From: an uncultured Trueperaceae bacterium
Lineage (GTDB): Bacteria > Deinococcota > Deinococci > Deinococcales > Trueperaceae
DNA: 64,000 nucleotides
Reading direction: 5' to 3'
Assembly (NCBI GenBank): GCA_937873495.1
Contig: CALMXZ010000002.1
Span: forward strand, 124,001-188,000
Positions 34,872-41,803 of this stretch are shown one piece after another. Below the pieces are notes generated by a model. It made no database searches, was not told the origin of the DNA, and saw only the letters and a list, made by a program, of their open reading frames with translations. Made by a program: the position numbers and the translations under genes. Every line of letters starts with the position of its first letter. Position 1 is the first letter of the stretch.

Positions 34872-35399
34872 TCAGCCGCCCGCGGTGCGTTCCAGCGCGA
34901 TCCTGCCGGTGCGGATGAGCTCGACGATCCCGAACGGGCGCATCTGCTCGATGAAGGCGTCCATCTTGCGCTCGTCGCCCGTCACCTCGAAGACCAGGGC
35001 GGTCCTGGCGACGTCGAGGATGCGCGCCCTGAAGTCCTGGGCGATCTGGCGGATCTCGACGCGCTCGTCGGGGTTCTTGACGGCGACCTTGAGCAGCATC
35101 AGCTCCCGGTCGACGGACCGGTCGGTCGTATGGTTCACGACGGTGAGCACGTCGATGAGCTTGTGGAGCTGCTTCTCGACCTGCTCGATGGTGTCGTCCG
35201 GGCCGCTGACCACGAAGGTGGTCCTGCTGATGCCCGGGCGCTCCGACTGCGCGACGGAGAGCGACTCGATGTTGAAGCCGCGCCGCGCGAAGAGCCCGGC
35301 GATGCGCACGAGGACGCCGGGTTTGTCCCTCACGGCCACGCTGAGCACGTGCTGCTTGCTGCGCGACCCGTTGGCGGAGCCGGTAGCCGAGCCGCTCAC
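34872..35399 (-). CDS. ilvN: Acetolactate synthase regulatory subunit
   Basis: 175 aa. GTG start in a GTGA overlap with ilvB. A short Ser/Gly-rich N-terminus is followed by the ACT domain HVLSVAVRDKPGVLVRIAGLFARRGFNIESL and the C-terminal ALS_ss_C-type domain (about 95-170). It binds valine and gives feedback control of IlvB. Confidence 0.96.
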   Translation of the reverse strand: MSGSATGSANGSRSKQHVLSVAVRDKPGVLVRIAGLFARRGFNIESLSVAQSERPGISRTTFVVSGPDDTIEQVEKQLHKLIDVLTVVNHTTDRSVDRELMLLKVAVKNPDERVEIRQIAQDFRARILDVARTALVFEVTGDERKMDAFIEQMRPFGIVELIRTGRIALERTAGG

Positions 35400-37102
35400 C
35401 GAGCCACCGGTTCCGGCTCGGCGACCGCCTGGGCGTCGGGCTCCTGGTCACCGAGGATCATCTCGTCGACGCCGGCGCCCGCCGGGACCATCGGGAAGAC
35501 CTTCTCGGCCTCGTAGACGAAGAAGTTGAGGAGCACGGGCTTCCGGGCCGCCACGGCGGCCCGGATGGCGCTCTTGGCCGTCTCGCGGTCGTGGATGTTG
35601 TGGCCCTCGATGCCGTACGCCTCGGCGAGCTTGGCGAAGTCCGGGTTGGAGTCCGCGAGGTAGATCTCGCTGTAACGCTGGGCGTGGAAGAGCTCTTGCC
35701 ACTGGCGCACCATCCCGAGCACGCCGTTGTTGAGGATGGCGATGACCACCGGGAGGTTCTCCTTGTAGAGGGTGGCCAGCTCCTGGATGTTCATCTGGAT
35801 GCTGCCGTCGCCCGCGATCAGGACGACCGTCTCGCCCTTGCGTGCGATAGCGGCGCCGATGGCGGCGGGGAGGCCGAAGCCCATGGTGCCGAGACCGCCT
35901 GACGTGATGAACGAGCGCGCCTTCGTGGTCGGGAGCATGCGGGCGGCGAACATCTGGTGCTGCCCGACCTCCGTCGCCACGACGCACTCCCCCGCCGTCG
36001 CCTCGCGCAGCATGGCCAGGATCTCCTGCGACACGAGCGGCTTGTCGAGCGTGTACTTCTCCGGGTACGTGGCCTTCCAGCCGGCGAGCGTCTCGCGCCA
36101 CTCGCCGATGTCGAGCGGGCCGAGCTCCTGCGTGAGGCGCGGCAGCACGTCGCGCAGGTCGCCTACCACCGGCACGTGCGCCTTGACCAGCTTGCTGATC
36201 TCGGCCGGGTCGATGTCGATGTGGACGACCGTGGCGTTGGGCGCGAAGCGGCTGATCTTGCCCGTCACCCGGTCGTCGAAGCGCAGGCCGGCTCCGAGGA
36301 TGAGGTCGCAGTGGCTGATCGCCTTGTTCGCCGAGACGGTGCCGTGCATGCCGGGCATGCCGAGGGACTCGTCCGCCGCGGGCGGGTAGGCCCCGATGCC
36401 CATCAGCGTCGTGATGACGGGGATGCCGGTGCGCTCCACCAGCTCGGCCACCTCGCGCGGCGCCACCTGGCCGCCGCCGCCGACGATCAGCACGGGGCGC
36501 TTGGCGGCCCGGATGGCCTCGGCCGCCCTGCGGATCTGACCGGCGTGACCGACGATCGTCGGCTTGTAGCCGGGCAGGTCGATCTCGGCGTCGAGGGAGC
36601 CGTCGTACTTGGCGAGCTGGACGTCCTTGGGGATGTCGACGAGCACCGGGCCCGGCCTACCGGTCGAAGCGATGTGGAACGCCTCCGCGAGCACCTGGGG
36701 GAGCTCCTCGATGCGCTTGACCAGGTAGTTGTGCTTGGTGACTGGGCCGGTGATGCCGTAGACGTCGGCCTCCTGGAACGCGTCGGTGCCGATGAGGCCG
36801 CTCGAGACGTTGCCCGTGATCGCCACCACGGCCGAGGAGTCCATCATGGCCGTAGCGAGACCCGTCACCAGGTTGGTCGCCCCGGGTCCGGACGTGGCGA
36901 AGCAGACGCCGACCCTGCCGCTCGCCCGGTAGTAGGCGTCGGCCATGTGCGCGCCGCCCTGCTCGTGCCTGACGAGGACGTGTTTGATCGGCGAATCGTA
37001 GAGCGCGTCGTAGATGGGCATGATGGCGCCGCCGGGGTGACCGAATATCACCTCCACGCCATGCCTCTCGAGGAGCTTCATCACGACTTCCGAACCTGTC
37101 AT
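35396..37102 (-). CDS. ilvB: Acetolactate synthase catalytic subunit
   Basis: 568 aa from the ATG at 37100-37102, preceded by GGAGG at 7 nt; the frame is open further upstream but that part is the leader region. Family motifs include FGHPGGAIMPIYDAL, RHEQGGAHMADAY with TPP Glu47, SGPGATNLVTG, the GDGSIQMNIQEL ThDP/Mg motif and LNNGVLGMVRQWQ. It makes acetolactate or acetohydroxybutyrate. Expression is controlled by the upstream attenuator. Confidence 0.96.
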   Translation of the reverse strand: MTGSEVVMKLLERHGVEVIFGHPGGAIMPIYDALYDSPIKHVLVRHEQGGAHMADAYYRASGRVGVCFATSGPGATNLVTGLATAMMDSSAVVAITGNVSSGLIGTDAFQEADVYGITGPVTKHNYLVKRIEELPQVLAEAFHIASTGRPGPVLVDIPKDVQLAKYDGSLDAEIDLPGYKPTIVGHAGQIRRAAEAIRAAKRPVLIVGGGGQVAPREVAELVERTGIPVITTLMGIGAYPPAADESLGMPGMHGTVSANKAISHCDLILGAGLRFDDRVTGKISRFAPNATVVHIDIDPAEISKLVKAHVPVVGDLRDVLPRLTQELGPLDIGEWRETLAGWKATYPEKYTLDKPLVSQEILAMLREATAGECVVATEVGQHQMFAARMLPTTKARSFITSGGLGTMGFGLPAAIGAAIARKGETVVLIAGDGSIQMNIQELATLYKENLPVVIAILNNGVLGMVRQWQELFHAQRYSEIYLADSNPDFAKLAEAYGIEGHNIHDRETAKSAIRAAVAARKPVLLNFFVYEAEKVFPMVPAGAGVDEMILGDQEPDAQAVAEPEPVAR

Positions 37103-37325: not shown

Positions 37326-37500
37326 CCCGCCTGGAGAGTTCGCGCCGTGACGCTCGGTGTTCCTGGCCCCTCGAGGAGCGGGGCGGTCGTGCATAACCGC
37401 TCGCATAAGCGTCACGGTCGGCGCGCCCACGGGCCACGAAGTGACGGCGACACATGGCCGGGGGCTTCGCTTGGCGCACAATCAAGCAGTCCTGCTGCTG

Positions 37501-37514
37501 GGAGGTCCGCCATC
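37501..37514 (+). promoter_or_regulatory. Shine-Dalgarno GGAGG and ATC initiation codon of spoVS
   Basis: GGAGG at 37501-37505 is 6 nt from ATC at 37512-37514. No ATG, GTG or TTG in frame lies near it. The ATC aligns with the initiator Met of SpoVS proteins, which begin MEILKVS; here the sequence is (I/M)EILRVS. Confidence 0.75.
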
Positions 37515-37832
37515 GAAATCCTACGCGTCTCCGGATCGTCTCGTCCTAACTCGGTGGCCGGCGCCATCGCGGCGCTCCTGCGGAGCGAGGGCGAGGTGGA
37601 AGTCCAGGCCATCGGCCCGCAGGCGGTCAACCAGGCCGTGAAGGCCATCGCCATCGCCCGCTCCTACCTGGAGAACGACCGGCTCGACCTGTACGCCGTG
37701 CCGTCGTTCGTGCGCCTCGAGCTGCTTGGCGAGGAGCGCACGGCGGTGCGCTTCCTCGTGACGGCGCGGCCGGTCGTAGGGGGCGCGGTTCCCGACCCCG
37801 ACGAGGCGCCAGGCATGCCGATCACGGGCTAG
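37512..37832 (+). CDS. spoVS: SpoVS-family Alba-like protein, apparent ATC start
   Basis: 106 aa. EILRVSGSSRPNSVAGAIA, VQAIGPQAVNQAVKAIAIAR and EERTAVRFLVT follow the whole SpoVS family pattern, from the second residue to about residue 88, with a short Pro/Asp-rich tail. SpoVS is a small Alba-fold protein, known as a sporulation factor in Bacillus but also present in non-sporulating Deinococcus-Thermus, where its role is unclear. The nearest conventional in-frame start would add tens of low-quality residues and has no ribosome-binding site. Confidence 0.88.
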   Translation: MEILRVSGSSRPNSVAGAIAALLRSEGEVEVQAIGPQAVNQAVKAIAIARSYLENDRLDLYAVPSFVRLELLGEERTAVRFLVTARPVVGGAVPDPDEAPGMPITG

Positions 37833-37892: not shown

Positions 37893-39230
37893 GTGGGCGG
37901 AACGCGGTCACGCACTGCGGCGGTCGGACGCTTCGCGCCTTCGGGCGCGACGGTCGACGAGCCGCGGCGCATGGCGCTCAGCGTGCTCGGCCGCCTGCGT
38001 GGTGGCGCCTTCCTGGCACCCACGCTGCACGAGCTCCTGAGCGCCGCGCCGTTCGACCGGGCCGGGCGGGGGCTCGTCACCGACCTCAGCTACGGCGTCG
38101 CCAGGCGCATGATCGAGCTCGACGCGGTGTTGGCGCCGCTGCTCAAGCGCCCCGACCGCCTGCCGCCGACGGTGATGGACGCGTTGCGGCTCGGCGCTTT
38201 CGAGGTGGTGCACCGGGGCACGCCGCCGTACGCCGCCGTCGACGCCTGGGTCGGCATCGTCAAGCGCGAGGCACCCGGGCTGGCCGGCCTCGTCAACGCG
38301 GTCCTGCGGCGCGTGGCGCCGCTGCCTGCCGGCGGGCCTTCCCACACCGCCGCCGCTCTGCGCACCTCACTGCCCGTGTGGCTGTACGAGCGCTTCGGTA
38401 CCGCGCTCGGAGCCCGCGCCTCCGAGGCCGCAGAGGCCATGCTCGAGCCGGAGCCGCTCTGGCTGACGGCGTTCGACCCGGCGGCCCGGACCGCCCTCGA
38501 GGCGGACGCCGCCGGCGTGGCAGCCTACGGCCCGGCCCGGCCGGGCCGGCCCGGCTCGTTGCGGGTCATGGCGCCCATGAGCGTCGACCGCCTCGCGGCC
38601 TTCACCAGCGGCCTCGTGCAGCCCCAGAACCCTGCCTCCCTGCAGGTTGCGTTGCTCCTCGACCCGCCGCCCGGGGCGCGCGTCCTCGACCTGGCGAGCG
38701 GGAGGGGCGTGAAGAGCGCGGTGCTCGCCGCGCTCGGCGCCGACGTGTGCGCCGTGGAGCTCGACCCGCGCCGTTCGGCCGCCGCCGAGCGCAACCTGCG
38801 GCGCCTCGGCCTACGGGTGCGGCACGTGAGCGCGGACCTGACGCGCCCGCTCGACGTCGCCCCCGCGCTGCACGTCCTCCTCGACGCGCCGTGCAGCGGC
38901 ACGGGCACGCTGCGAGGCCACCCGGAGATCAAACTGCGGCTGACCCCCGAGGGCGTCGCCGCCGCGGCCGAGACTCAGGCGCGCATGCTCGAGACGGCGG
39001 CGGCCGTGGTAGCTCCAGGCGGCGTGCTCCAGTACGCCGTCTGCGCCCTCACGCCGGAGGAGGGTACTGAGGTCGTGGCGCGCTTCCTTGCCTCGAGCCA
39101 CGGCCGCGGGTTCGCCGCGGAGTCGTTCGAGCTGCCCCTCCCGACGCACGCGGCGGAGCACGGCCGCTACACCCTGCCCTTGGAGGGGCTCGACGGCTTC
39201 TACGTCGCGCGCTTGCGTAGGGCGGCTTGA
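37893..39230 (+). CDS. rsmB: 16S rRNA m5C methyltransferase, RsmB/NOL1-NOP2 type
   Basis: 445 aa. An N-terminal NusB-like helical domain (about 25-150, PPYAAVDAWVGIVKREAPGLAGLVNAVLRR) is followed by the methyltransferase: PASLQVALLLDPPPGARVLDLASGRGVKS, motif IV DAPCSGTGTLRGHPEIKLR and motif VI LQYAVCALTPEEG with the catalytic Cys. The NusB domain points to RsmB, which makes m5C967 in E. coli 16S rRNA. The position modified here is inferred. Confidence 0.88.
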   Translation: MGGTRSRTAAVGRFAPSGATVDEPRRMALSVLGRLRGGAFLAPTLHELLSAAPFDRAGRGLVTDLSYGVARRMIELDAVLAPLLKRPDRLPPTVMDALRLGAFEVVHRGTPPYAAVDAWVGIVKREAPGLAGLVNAVLRRVAPLPAGGPSHTAAALRTSLPVWLYERFGTALGARASEAAEAMLEPEPLWLTAFDPAARTALEADAAGVAAYGPARPGRPGSLRVMAPMSVDRLAAFTSGLVQPQNPASLQVALLLDPPPGARVLDLASGRGVKSAVLAALGADVCAVELDPRRSAAAERNLRRLGLRVRHVSADLTRPLDVAPALHVLLDAPCSGTGTLRGHPEIKLRLTPEGVAAAAETQARMLETAAAVVAPGGVLQYAVCALTPEEGTEVVARFLASSHGRGFAAESFELPLPTHAAEHGRYTLPLEGLDGFYVARLRRAA

Positions 39231-39267: not shown

Positions 39268-40293
39268 ATGTCGAGCGAGGGAACACGTAACGCCGCGCCC
39301 GCGGCAGGCGCCGTGGCGGTCGCCGAGGCCGCGCCTGGCCAGAGGCCCGTGTCTGTCCAACTCTCCGAGCGCGTCCACGCCGTGCCGGGGGGCGTCAACT
39401 GCGCCATCGTCGACGCGGGAGACGGCCGCGCGCTCCTAGTCGACAGCGGTCAGGACAAGGAGTACGGACGCAAGGTCCGCAAGGCGCTCGACGCGCTCGG
39501 GCTGGAGTTGGCCGTCATCCTCGCCACGCACTCGCACGCCGACCATTACGGCGGCAACGCCTACCTCCTCAGGCAGTTTCCTGACGCGCGGGTCTGGGCA
39601 CCCGAGATCGAGGCGGACATCATCCGCACCCCGATGCTCGAGCCCATCTACCTCTTCCACGGTGCCAAGCCGTTGCCCGAACTCACCAGCAAGTGGCTGC
39701 AGGCCGAAGCCTCCCCGGTCCACCGCATCGTGGGCGCCGGTCACGAGGTCGTCGGCGGCGTCGGCCTGGAGCTGCTCGACGTGAGGGGGCACGCCCACAG
39801 GCAGCTGGCCGTGGTCGTCGACGACGTGCTACTGGCCGCGGACGCCGTGTTCGGCGCCGAGACGTTGGAGAAGTACCCGATCCCGTTCGCGCAGGACGTG
39901 GTGGGCCAACTGCGCGCCTACGAGACGGTGGCCGGGGTGGACGCCAGGGTCCTCCTCCCCGGCCACGGCGCCCCGACCGGCGACATCGCCGGCGTGGCCG
40001 AGGCTAACCGCCTGTCCGTGCTCCTGGCGGCCGACGCCGTCCTGGCCGCCTGCGCCGTGGCCGGAGCGCCCATCGGCACTAGCACCGAGGACGTGGTGGT
40101 GCGCTCCGCCGAGAGCCTTGGCGTCGCTCTCGACGACCTGGCGCGCTATCACCTCAACTTCTGCGTCGTGTCCGCCCACCTCGGGCGGCTCCGCGAGCTG
40201 GGCGAGATCACTTGCGCGGTCGAGGCCGGGCGCCTCGTATGGCGGCGTGGCGCGCCCTCCGCCGATAGCGTCGAGAAGGGCGGGGTCGCATGA
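39268..40293 (+). CDS. Metallo-beta-lactamase-fold hydrolase
   Basis: 341 aa from the ATG at 39268, 5 nt after TACCCT. HSHADHYGGNAYLL is the HxHxDH zinc motif, RGHAHRQLAVV and LLPGHGAPTGD give the further metal ligands. A helical C-terminal region (about 225-330) has a LADLARYHLNF-like winged-helix look seen in LACTB2-type enzymes. Substrate unknown; hydroxyacylglutathione hydrolase or an RNA/nucleotide phosphodiesterase are options. It overlaps the next gene by 4 nt. Confidence 0.8.
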   Translation: MSSEGTRNAAPAAGAVAVAEAAPGQRPVSVQLSERVHAVPGGVNCAIVDAGDGRALLVDSGQDKEYGRKVRKALDALGLELAVILATHSHADHYGGNAYLLRQFPDARVWAPEIEADIIRTPMLEPIYLFHGAKPLPELTSKWLQAEASPVHRIVGAGHEVVGGVGLELLDVRGHAHRQLAVVVDDVLLAADAVFGAETLEKYPIPFAQDVVGQLRAYETVAGVDARVLLPGHGAPTGDIAGVAEANRLSVLLAADAVLAACAVAGAPIGTSTEDVVVRSAESLGVALDDLARYHLNFCVVSAHLGRLRELGEITCAVEAGRLVWRRGAPSADSVEKGGVA

Positions 40294-41666
40294 GGCTCAC
40301 GAGCGCCGGCGCCGCGCGCACGGTCACGGGCAGCTGTCACCACCTGGATCTCGGCGACTTCCAGCTCGTCGTCGACTGCGGCCTCTTCCAGGGCGGGGCC
40401 GAGCTGGACGCGCTCAACCGCGCGCCCTTCCCGTTCGAGCCGCGTGGTCTCGGCAGCGTGCTCGTCACCCACGGGCACCTCGACCATGTCGGCCGCCTGC
40501 CCCTGCTCGTCAAGGCGGGCTACCAAGGCAGCTTCCTCGCCACCAAGGCGACGGTCGATGTGGCCGCCATCATCCTCCGGGACGCGGCCAAGATCCAGGA
40601 GGAGGACTTCGAGCGCGACCTGCGCAAGGCGCGCCGCGCCGGACGCGAGGCCGAGCTGCAGGGTCCGCTCTACACCGTGGCGGACGCCGAGGCGGCCATC
40701 GCCCGCTTCCAGAGCGTGGCGATGCACGAGGCCGTGCGCGTCGCCGACGGCGTCACGGCGACGTTCAGGCCGGCGGGCCACATCCTCGGCAGCGCCTACA
40801 TCGAGCTCCAGACGCGCGCGGCCCGGGTCGTCTTCTCCGGCGATCTCGGCAACCGCGAGAGCAGCATCCAGGCGCCGACCGAGCCGCCGAGCCGGTGCGA
40901 CGTGCTCGTGATCGAGTCAACCTACGCCGATCAGACGCATCCGACGCGGGCCGAGACGGAGGCCCGCTTCCGCGCCGCGCTCGGGCGCTCGCTCGCCAAG
41001 GGCGGCAACGTCATGATCCCGACGTTCGCGGCCGAGCGCGCCCAGCAGGTCCTCTACCTCCTGAACCGCCTCATGAGCGCCGGGCAGGCCCCGAGGTTGC
41101 CTGTCTTCCTCGACTCGCCCATGGCCGCGAAGATGACGCGCCTGTACCAGGAGTGCGCCTGCGACTTCCGCCCTGAGATAGCGGCCCTCATAGACGCCGG
41201 CGAGGACCCGTTCGAGCCGCCGACGCTCCGCTACGCCGTCACCGCAGACGACTCCAAGGCCATCAACGAGGTCGAAGGCGGGGCGGTCATCATCGCCGGT
41301 TCCGGCATGATGACCGGCGGTCGCATCAGGCACCACCTCAAGCACAACCTATGGCGCGAGGAGGCGACCCTCATCGTGGTCGGTTACCAGGCGCACGGCA
41401 CGCTCGGCAGGGTCCTCCTTGACGGCGCCAAGCGCGTCAAGCTGTTCGGTGAGGAGGTCGTCGTGCGGGCGGCGATCGAGAACATCAAGGGGTTCTCCGC
41501 GCACGCCGATCGCGACGACCTCCTGGCGTTCCTCACCCCGACCGACGCGGCGCACGTGCTTCTCGTCCACGGGGAGCCCGAGGTCATGGACGGCTTCGCC
41601 GCTGAGCTCCGCCAGACGGGGCGCCGGGTTTCGCTACCAGAGCTCGGTGTGCCACTGGACCTGTGA
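40290..41666 (+). CDS. Beta-CASP metallo-beta-lactamase ribonuclease
   Basis: 458 aa. LVTHGHLDHVGRLPLLV carries the HxHxDH site. PAGHILGSAYIEL, FSGDLGNRESSI, VIESTYADQTHP, the SGMMTGGRI and GYQAHGTLGR beta-CASP motifs and the FSAHADRDDLL segment are all present. This matches the CPSF73-like RNases of Thermus (TTHA0252 type) rather than RNase J. It likely degrades or processes mRNA in the cytoplasm. The last 14 codons are copied twice downstream. Confidence 0.9.
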   Translation: MRLTSAGAARTVTGSCHHLDLGDFQLVVDCGLFQGGAELDALNRAPFPFEPRGLGSVLVTHGHLDHVGRLPLLVKAGYQGSFLATKATVDVAAIILRDAAKIQEEDFERDLRKARRAGREAELQGPLYTVADAEAAIARFQSVAMHEAVRVADGVTATFRPAGHILGSAYIELQTRAARVVFSGDLGNRESSIQAPTEPPSRCDVLVIESTYADQTHPTRAETEARFRAALGRSLAKGGNVMIPTFAAERAQQVLYLLNRLMSAGQAPRLPVFLDSPMAAKMTRLYQECACDFRPEIAALIDAGEDPFEPPTLRYAVTADDSKAINEVEGGAVIIAGSGMMTGGRIRHHLKHNLWREEATLIVVGYQAHGTLGRVLLDGAKRVKLFGEEVVVRAAIENIKGFSAHADRDDLLAFLTPTDAAHVLLVHGEPEVMDGFAAELRQTGRRVSLPELGVPLDL

Positions 41667-41803
41667 GCGGGGGGCGCCCCTGCGCCAGGTCTCGCTGCCG
41701 GAGTTGGGTGTGCCGCTCGACTTGTGAGCGGGGGGCGCCCCTGCGCCAGGTCTCGCTGCCGGAGCTCCGTGTGCTGCTGGAGTCGTGAGCCGTGGGGCGC
41801 ACG
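41621..41803 (+). repeat. 61-bp direct repeat, three copies, derived from the beta-CASP gene 3' end
   Basis: Copies are 41621-41681, 41682-41742 and 41743-41803. Each contains a version of the last 14 sense codons plus stop of the beta-CASP gene and, after the stop, the palindrome GGGGCGCCCC in the first two. Copy 2 would code RQVSLPELGVPLDL and copy 3 RQVSLPELRVLLES, each followed by TGA. As 61 is not a multiple of 3, each copy is in a different frame. From the stop of copy 1, the next 40 nt are repeated exactly one period later. Confidence 0.9.

Follow-up and report, generated by a model that had tools for sequence, protein, structure and literature searches.

The gene spoVS of the Trueperaceae is predicted to begin at an ATC codon, a start position whose support is drawn from comparative genomics rather than from the protein level. 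We put at roughly 0.7 the probability that this AUC is read by the ordinary CAU initiator tRNA and has been selected for slow, factor-dependent initiation, by which SpoVS would be held at a low or controlled level. Conserved near-cognate initiation is a known phenomenon, classically in infC, and spoVS appears to be a so far unreported member of the class; the literature searched, in which most subscription journals were not represented, yielded no mention of AUC initiation for this gene.

The spoVS locus and its start codon across the family

The window analysed here is a stretch of 64,000 nucleotides from an uncultured Trueperaceae bacterium, whose genome (G000; 3.4 Mb, 17 contigs) carries one copy of spoVS. 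The coding sequence lies on the forward strand at 37512..37832 and has 106 codons, counting the ATC at 37512..37514, plus the stop TAG at 37830-37832. Its product belongs to the SpoVS protein family by a match to PF04232 that spans profile positions 1-82 of 83 (E 1.7e-35, 121.1 bits with a cut-off of 24) and starts at the first residue past the ATC. In a phmmer comparison with the Thermus thermophilus SpoVS entries 2eh1 and 2ek0 (E 5.5e-34) the alignment runs residue 2 to residue 2, and the ATC thus stands at the exact place of the initiator methionine in the solved protein. The codons that follow it, GAA ATC CTA CGC GTC TCC, encode E I L R V S, which the initial annotation had rightly recognised as a SpoVS N-terminus. 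It had also placed a GGAGG six nucleotides ahead of the ATC, and the Shine-Dalgarno core is indeed found on the forward strand at 37501..37505 (GGAGGT including the next base), with the spacer TCCGCC, of 6 nucleotides, at 37506-37511.

The divergent neighbour of spoVS, on the reverse strand at 35396..37102 (5' end approximate), is an ilvB-like gene for the acetolactate synthase large subunit, so that spoVS here does not lie behind a same-strand gene. The 3' neighbour, on the forward strand at 37893..39230, encodes an RsmB-like 16S rRNA methyltransferase; its listed start is GTG and the real start is possibly further in. Both neighbours were taken from the open reading frame list and identified by sequence only. 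The ilvB-like gene is kept beside spoVS in about 30 loci, and the RsmB-like gene has matches in 31. The order ilvB (divergent), spoVS, rsmB-like looks common to the window's locus (L001) and about 30 relatives across the family. Elsewhere in the window, a metallo-hydrolase gene occupies 40290-41666, and its end (...VSLPELGVPLDL) seems to recur directly 3' of it, at 41630-41727, like a duplicated 3' end.

We recovered spoVS from 34 of 39 Trueperaceae genomes, most of them fragmented assemblies, and read the aligned start in all 34; no Deinococcus was recognised among the genomes sampled. The start is ATC in 22 of the 34, which answers the question of conservation raised by the initial annotation, and ATA in 2 (L019, L037), ATG in 7 and GTG in 3, where L047 is scored as ATG with its ATG one codon ahead of the aligned position. 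One of the ATC genomes is complete (G017, locus L021) and was identified as Truepera radiovictrix, whose type-strain genome is published (PMC3072082). A diverged second SpoVS copy in another genome (L048, G014:C580; 57% identity) has an ATA start, with an in-frame stop five codons 5' of it and no alternative start between. The combination of GGAGG and ATC is by itself unremarkable, as a scan of the window for GGAGG followed at a spacer by ATC or CTG gave several other sites inside open frames, some clearly gene-internal; it is homology and conservation of the exact codon in 22 genomes that raise the spoVS site above chance.

Selection on the codon and the proposed mode of initiation

On a family tree built from DnaA, IF3, S12 and SpoVS, some rows of which are incomplete for this set, ATC occurs on both sides of the deepest Trueperaceae splits, and the Fitch root state of the spoVS start in the family is ATC, with moderate support (0.69) for the ancestral node. 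The other codons are nested within ATC: ATG in genera g2 and g16 and in genome G028, GTG in part of g7, and ATA in G012 and G014. Relatives with ATG at the same site, which the initial annotation had named as a possible sign of sequencing error, therefore exist, but their nested position marks them as later changes and they carry no error signal for the window. Where the start has become ATG, in two lineages and one further genome, or GTG, in one lineage, the weak codon is dispensable. Across the family, by rough Fitch counts, the third base of the start took 5 steps, while 27 four-fold sites within spoVS took 7-15 (median 12). The contrast is large, and a third base slower than all 27 indicates that the weak codon has been conserved by selection. 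In the sister families sampled, nearly all spoVS genes start with GTG, ATG being found in the small family f5 and in L051. ATG is thus shunned in spoVS by most of the class, and the Trueperaceae went further. The position of the start, its conservation and the constraint upon it are evident from the aligned sequences.

A Shine-Dalgarno core (GGAGG or GGGGG) stands 6-8 bases from the start in 25 of 25 ATC/ATA loci, extending to GGAGGT in 21, and it is as strong in genomes with ATG or GTG starts. The anti-Shine-Dalgarno sequence GGATCACCTCCTTT is present in one relative (G021), the only genome in which exact patterns found the 16S 3' end, those of the window's genome and of T. radiovictrix not being found in this way. 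Past the Shine-Dalgarno sequence no conserved leader was seen, the 12 triplets upstream varying alike at all three positions, and if spoVS is regulated the start codon itself is thus the likely element. Folding around the start, compared by eye, gave no structure in common, and a -10 box 5' of the Shine-Dalgarno sequence occurs in 9 of 25 loci versus 4.6 in shuffles, a weak signal. Codon 2 is GAA in 23 of 24 related loci and codon 4 is CTA or TTA in 15 of 24; in five genes of the window GAA makes up 17 of 166 Glu codons, and CTA and TTA together 19 of 249 Leu codons. Such a preference for window-rare codons near the start, among 24 loci that share kinship, is in keeping with selection acting where initiation takes place.

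A standard initiator tRNA, with a CAT anticodon, was found. A pattern search for an initiator-type tRNA with a GAT anticodon arm gave 11 matches, of which three are unread, and a dedicated tRNA of this kind was rejected at the eight read, none of which is a tRNA gene. The same genomes make parallel use of near-cognate codons in infC, where the start is ATC in 12, ATA in 11 and ATT in 5 of 29 read, behind the same Shine-Dalgarno sequence, and a third-base G is absent from all 28 clearly aligned infC starts.

In Escherichia coli, AUC, AUU and AUA are much weaker starts than AUG and belong to the class rejected by IF3. We propose that the AUC of spoVS would be read by the ordinary initiator fMet-tRNA (CAU), with A and U paired and the third base mismatched, and that the strong Shine-Dalgarno sequence at 6-8 bases would position the codon and offset part of the lost pairing. 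The AUC would slow initiation and make it depend on initiation-factor discrimination, as in infC, and would thereby keep the synthesis of SpoVS, which is a small protein with the Alba fold and of the nucleic-acid-binding type, low or controlled. Low SpoVS output, sensitivity to IF3 and a benefit of AUC are what we infer from this scheme. That low or IF3-sensitive expression is the purpose of the AUC, as the initial annotation had supposed, is plausible by analogy with infC, for which these genomes employ the same codons.

A possible but clearly less probable reading holds that AUC is the start and a tolerated relic, the strong Shine-Dalgarno sequence yielding enough protein with no regulatory role for the codon. 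The shift of several lineages to ATG or GTG agrees with it, as do the equal strength of the Shine-Dalgarno sequence whatever the start codon and a leader that, being otherwise unconserved, gives no hint of a regulatory element. Against it stands a third base slower than each of the 27 four-fold sites, even though a single change to G makes ATG, and the sister families, with their GTG, mostly avoid ATG as well. Selection for a slow, factor-dependent start remains the reading we prefer.

Alternatives to initiation at the ATC

The remaining alternatives deny that translation begins at the ATC. In the window the frame stays open upstream over 84 codons, which include GTG at -41 (37389-37391) and -55 and TTG at -75, and the ATC could in principle be an internal Ile codon of a longer protein; the initial annotation had seen no ATG, GTG or TTG near the ATC, and this is borne out, the nearest in frame being the GTG 41 codons upstream and a GTG at codon 15 downstream. 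Relatives close off the upstream region. There is a TAA at -35 in L003, from the window's own genus, a TGA seven codons ahead of the ATC in L006 and a TAG two codons ahead in L016, and between these stops and the ATC none of the three has an ATG, GTG, TTG, CTG, ATC, ATT or ATA. L004 likewise has an upstream stop with no ATG, GTG or TTG after it, and in L021 the stop is at -12 and the sole candidate after it is a second ATC abutting the first. Over all pairs of 24 loci, spoVS codons 2-13 differ 523, 492 and 1877 times at positions 1, 2 and 3, whereas the 12 triplets 5' of the ATC differ 2199, 2012 and 2125 times; within the genus the corresponding figures are 10, 0 and 67 for the codons and 88, 72 and 86 for the triplets. 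The substitution pattern is that of coding sequence from codon 2 and non-coding sequence upstream, which argues that protein coding begins at the ATC and not earlier. An upstream start, excluded by in-frame stops in the relatives and by the absence of a coding signature even within the genus, is therefore rejected as highly improbable.

A shorter SpoVS begun downstream is scarcely more credible. The window does offer a GTG at codon 15 (37554-37556), but this codon falls inside the conserved SpoVS domain, and codons 2-13, which evolve as protein-coding, contain the first conserved stretch of that domain. L005 has no in-frame ATG, GTG or TTG before codon 39 and L006 none before codon 43, which decides the matter; in L021 the first comes at codon 23.

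We give next to no weight to a sequencing or assembly error for ATG, or to frameshift entry from a start in another frame, since the ATG at this place in some relatives (L031, L032, L040, L042-L044) and the other-frame ATG upstream in a few loci are set against ATC in 22 separate assemblies, one a complete genome, the lack of any other-frame open reading frame across the start in L019, L020 and L037, and other-frame reading frames in the remaining loci that are conserved in neither position nor frame.

With upstream starts excluded and an AUH codon at the apparent true start throughout much of the clade, spoVS falls into the near-cognate class of the infC type. The AUC initiation put forward in the initial annotation is thus supported by the conservation of ATC, the upstream stops, the coding signature from codon 2, the Shine-Dalgarno spacing and the slow evolution of the codon.

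Near-cognate starts in other genes and their significance

Control genes read by the same method start almost entirely with ATG (rplT, ATG 26 and GTG 1; rpmI, ATG 27; rpsG, ATG 19 and GTG 1). The infC genes of the family (L071-L100) start with ATT, ATA or ATC behind GGAGGT, the codon being ATT in the window's genome (L077, G000:C12) and in all five members of its genus read. In rpsL (L131-L150) the apparent start is CTG (GGGAGTGATNNNCTG) in 15 of the 18 loci read, and the other three carry TTG or ATG there; a GTG that lies in frame four codons 5' and overlaps the Shine-Dalgarno sequence is a possible alternative start in the CTG genomes. Trueperaceae dnaA has ATG, GTG or TTG at its start and was rejected as an ATC-start gene common to the family.

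Proteomics of Deinococcus deserti by Baudet et al. in 2010 reportedly revealed non-canonical starts, including ATC for dnaA and CTG for rpsL. Deinococcus dnaA and Trueperaceae spoVS would be alike in phylum, in being conserved genes and in ATC initiation, but the gene differs: the dnaA ATC is not common to the Trueperaceae, while the rpsL CTG apparently is. The spoVS genes of the Thermaceae and other sister families share the gene, the Shine-Dalgarno sequence and the start of the frame, with GTG in nearly all sampled in place of ATC.

The closest comparison is infC, the gene of IF3, which in E. coli starts with AUU, is autoregulated through IF3 discrimination and belongs to the near-cognate class. 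Like infC, spoVS keeps an Ile-type near-cognate start clade-wide behind a strong Shine-Dalgarno sequence; infC varies freely among ATC, ATA and ATT with no G at the third base, whereas spoVS is mostly ATC, with ATG or GTG in some lineages. Unlike autoregulated infC, spoVS, known here from sequence alone, gives no sign of feedback on its own start. It is conceivable, although we think it doubtful, that infC, spoVS and rpsL form a small set of translation and nucleic-acid genes whose near-cognate starts are under common initiation-factor control, and that SpoVS may control its own AUC as IF3 does. The IF3 C-terminal domain and YhbY resemble the Alba fold, to which SpoVS belongs (PMC11621453), and this distantly common Alba-like fold may be taken as a lead for self-control, not as evidence of it.

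Common gene finders accept only ATG, GTG and TTG starts, so spoVS of the Trueperaceae has likely been missed, extended or truncated in annotations. Beyond infC, the gene adds a clade-wide AUC start with a measured constraint. The spoVS start and its dependence on IF3 may be approached in Truepera radiovictrix, of which a cultured type strain exists, and the ATC, ATA, ATG and GTG versions of spoVS in related genera would provide a natural series bearing on why a weak start is kept.
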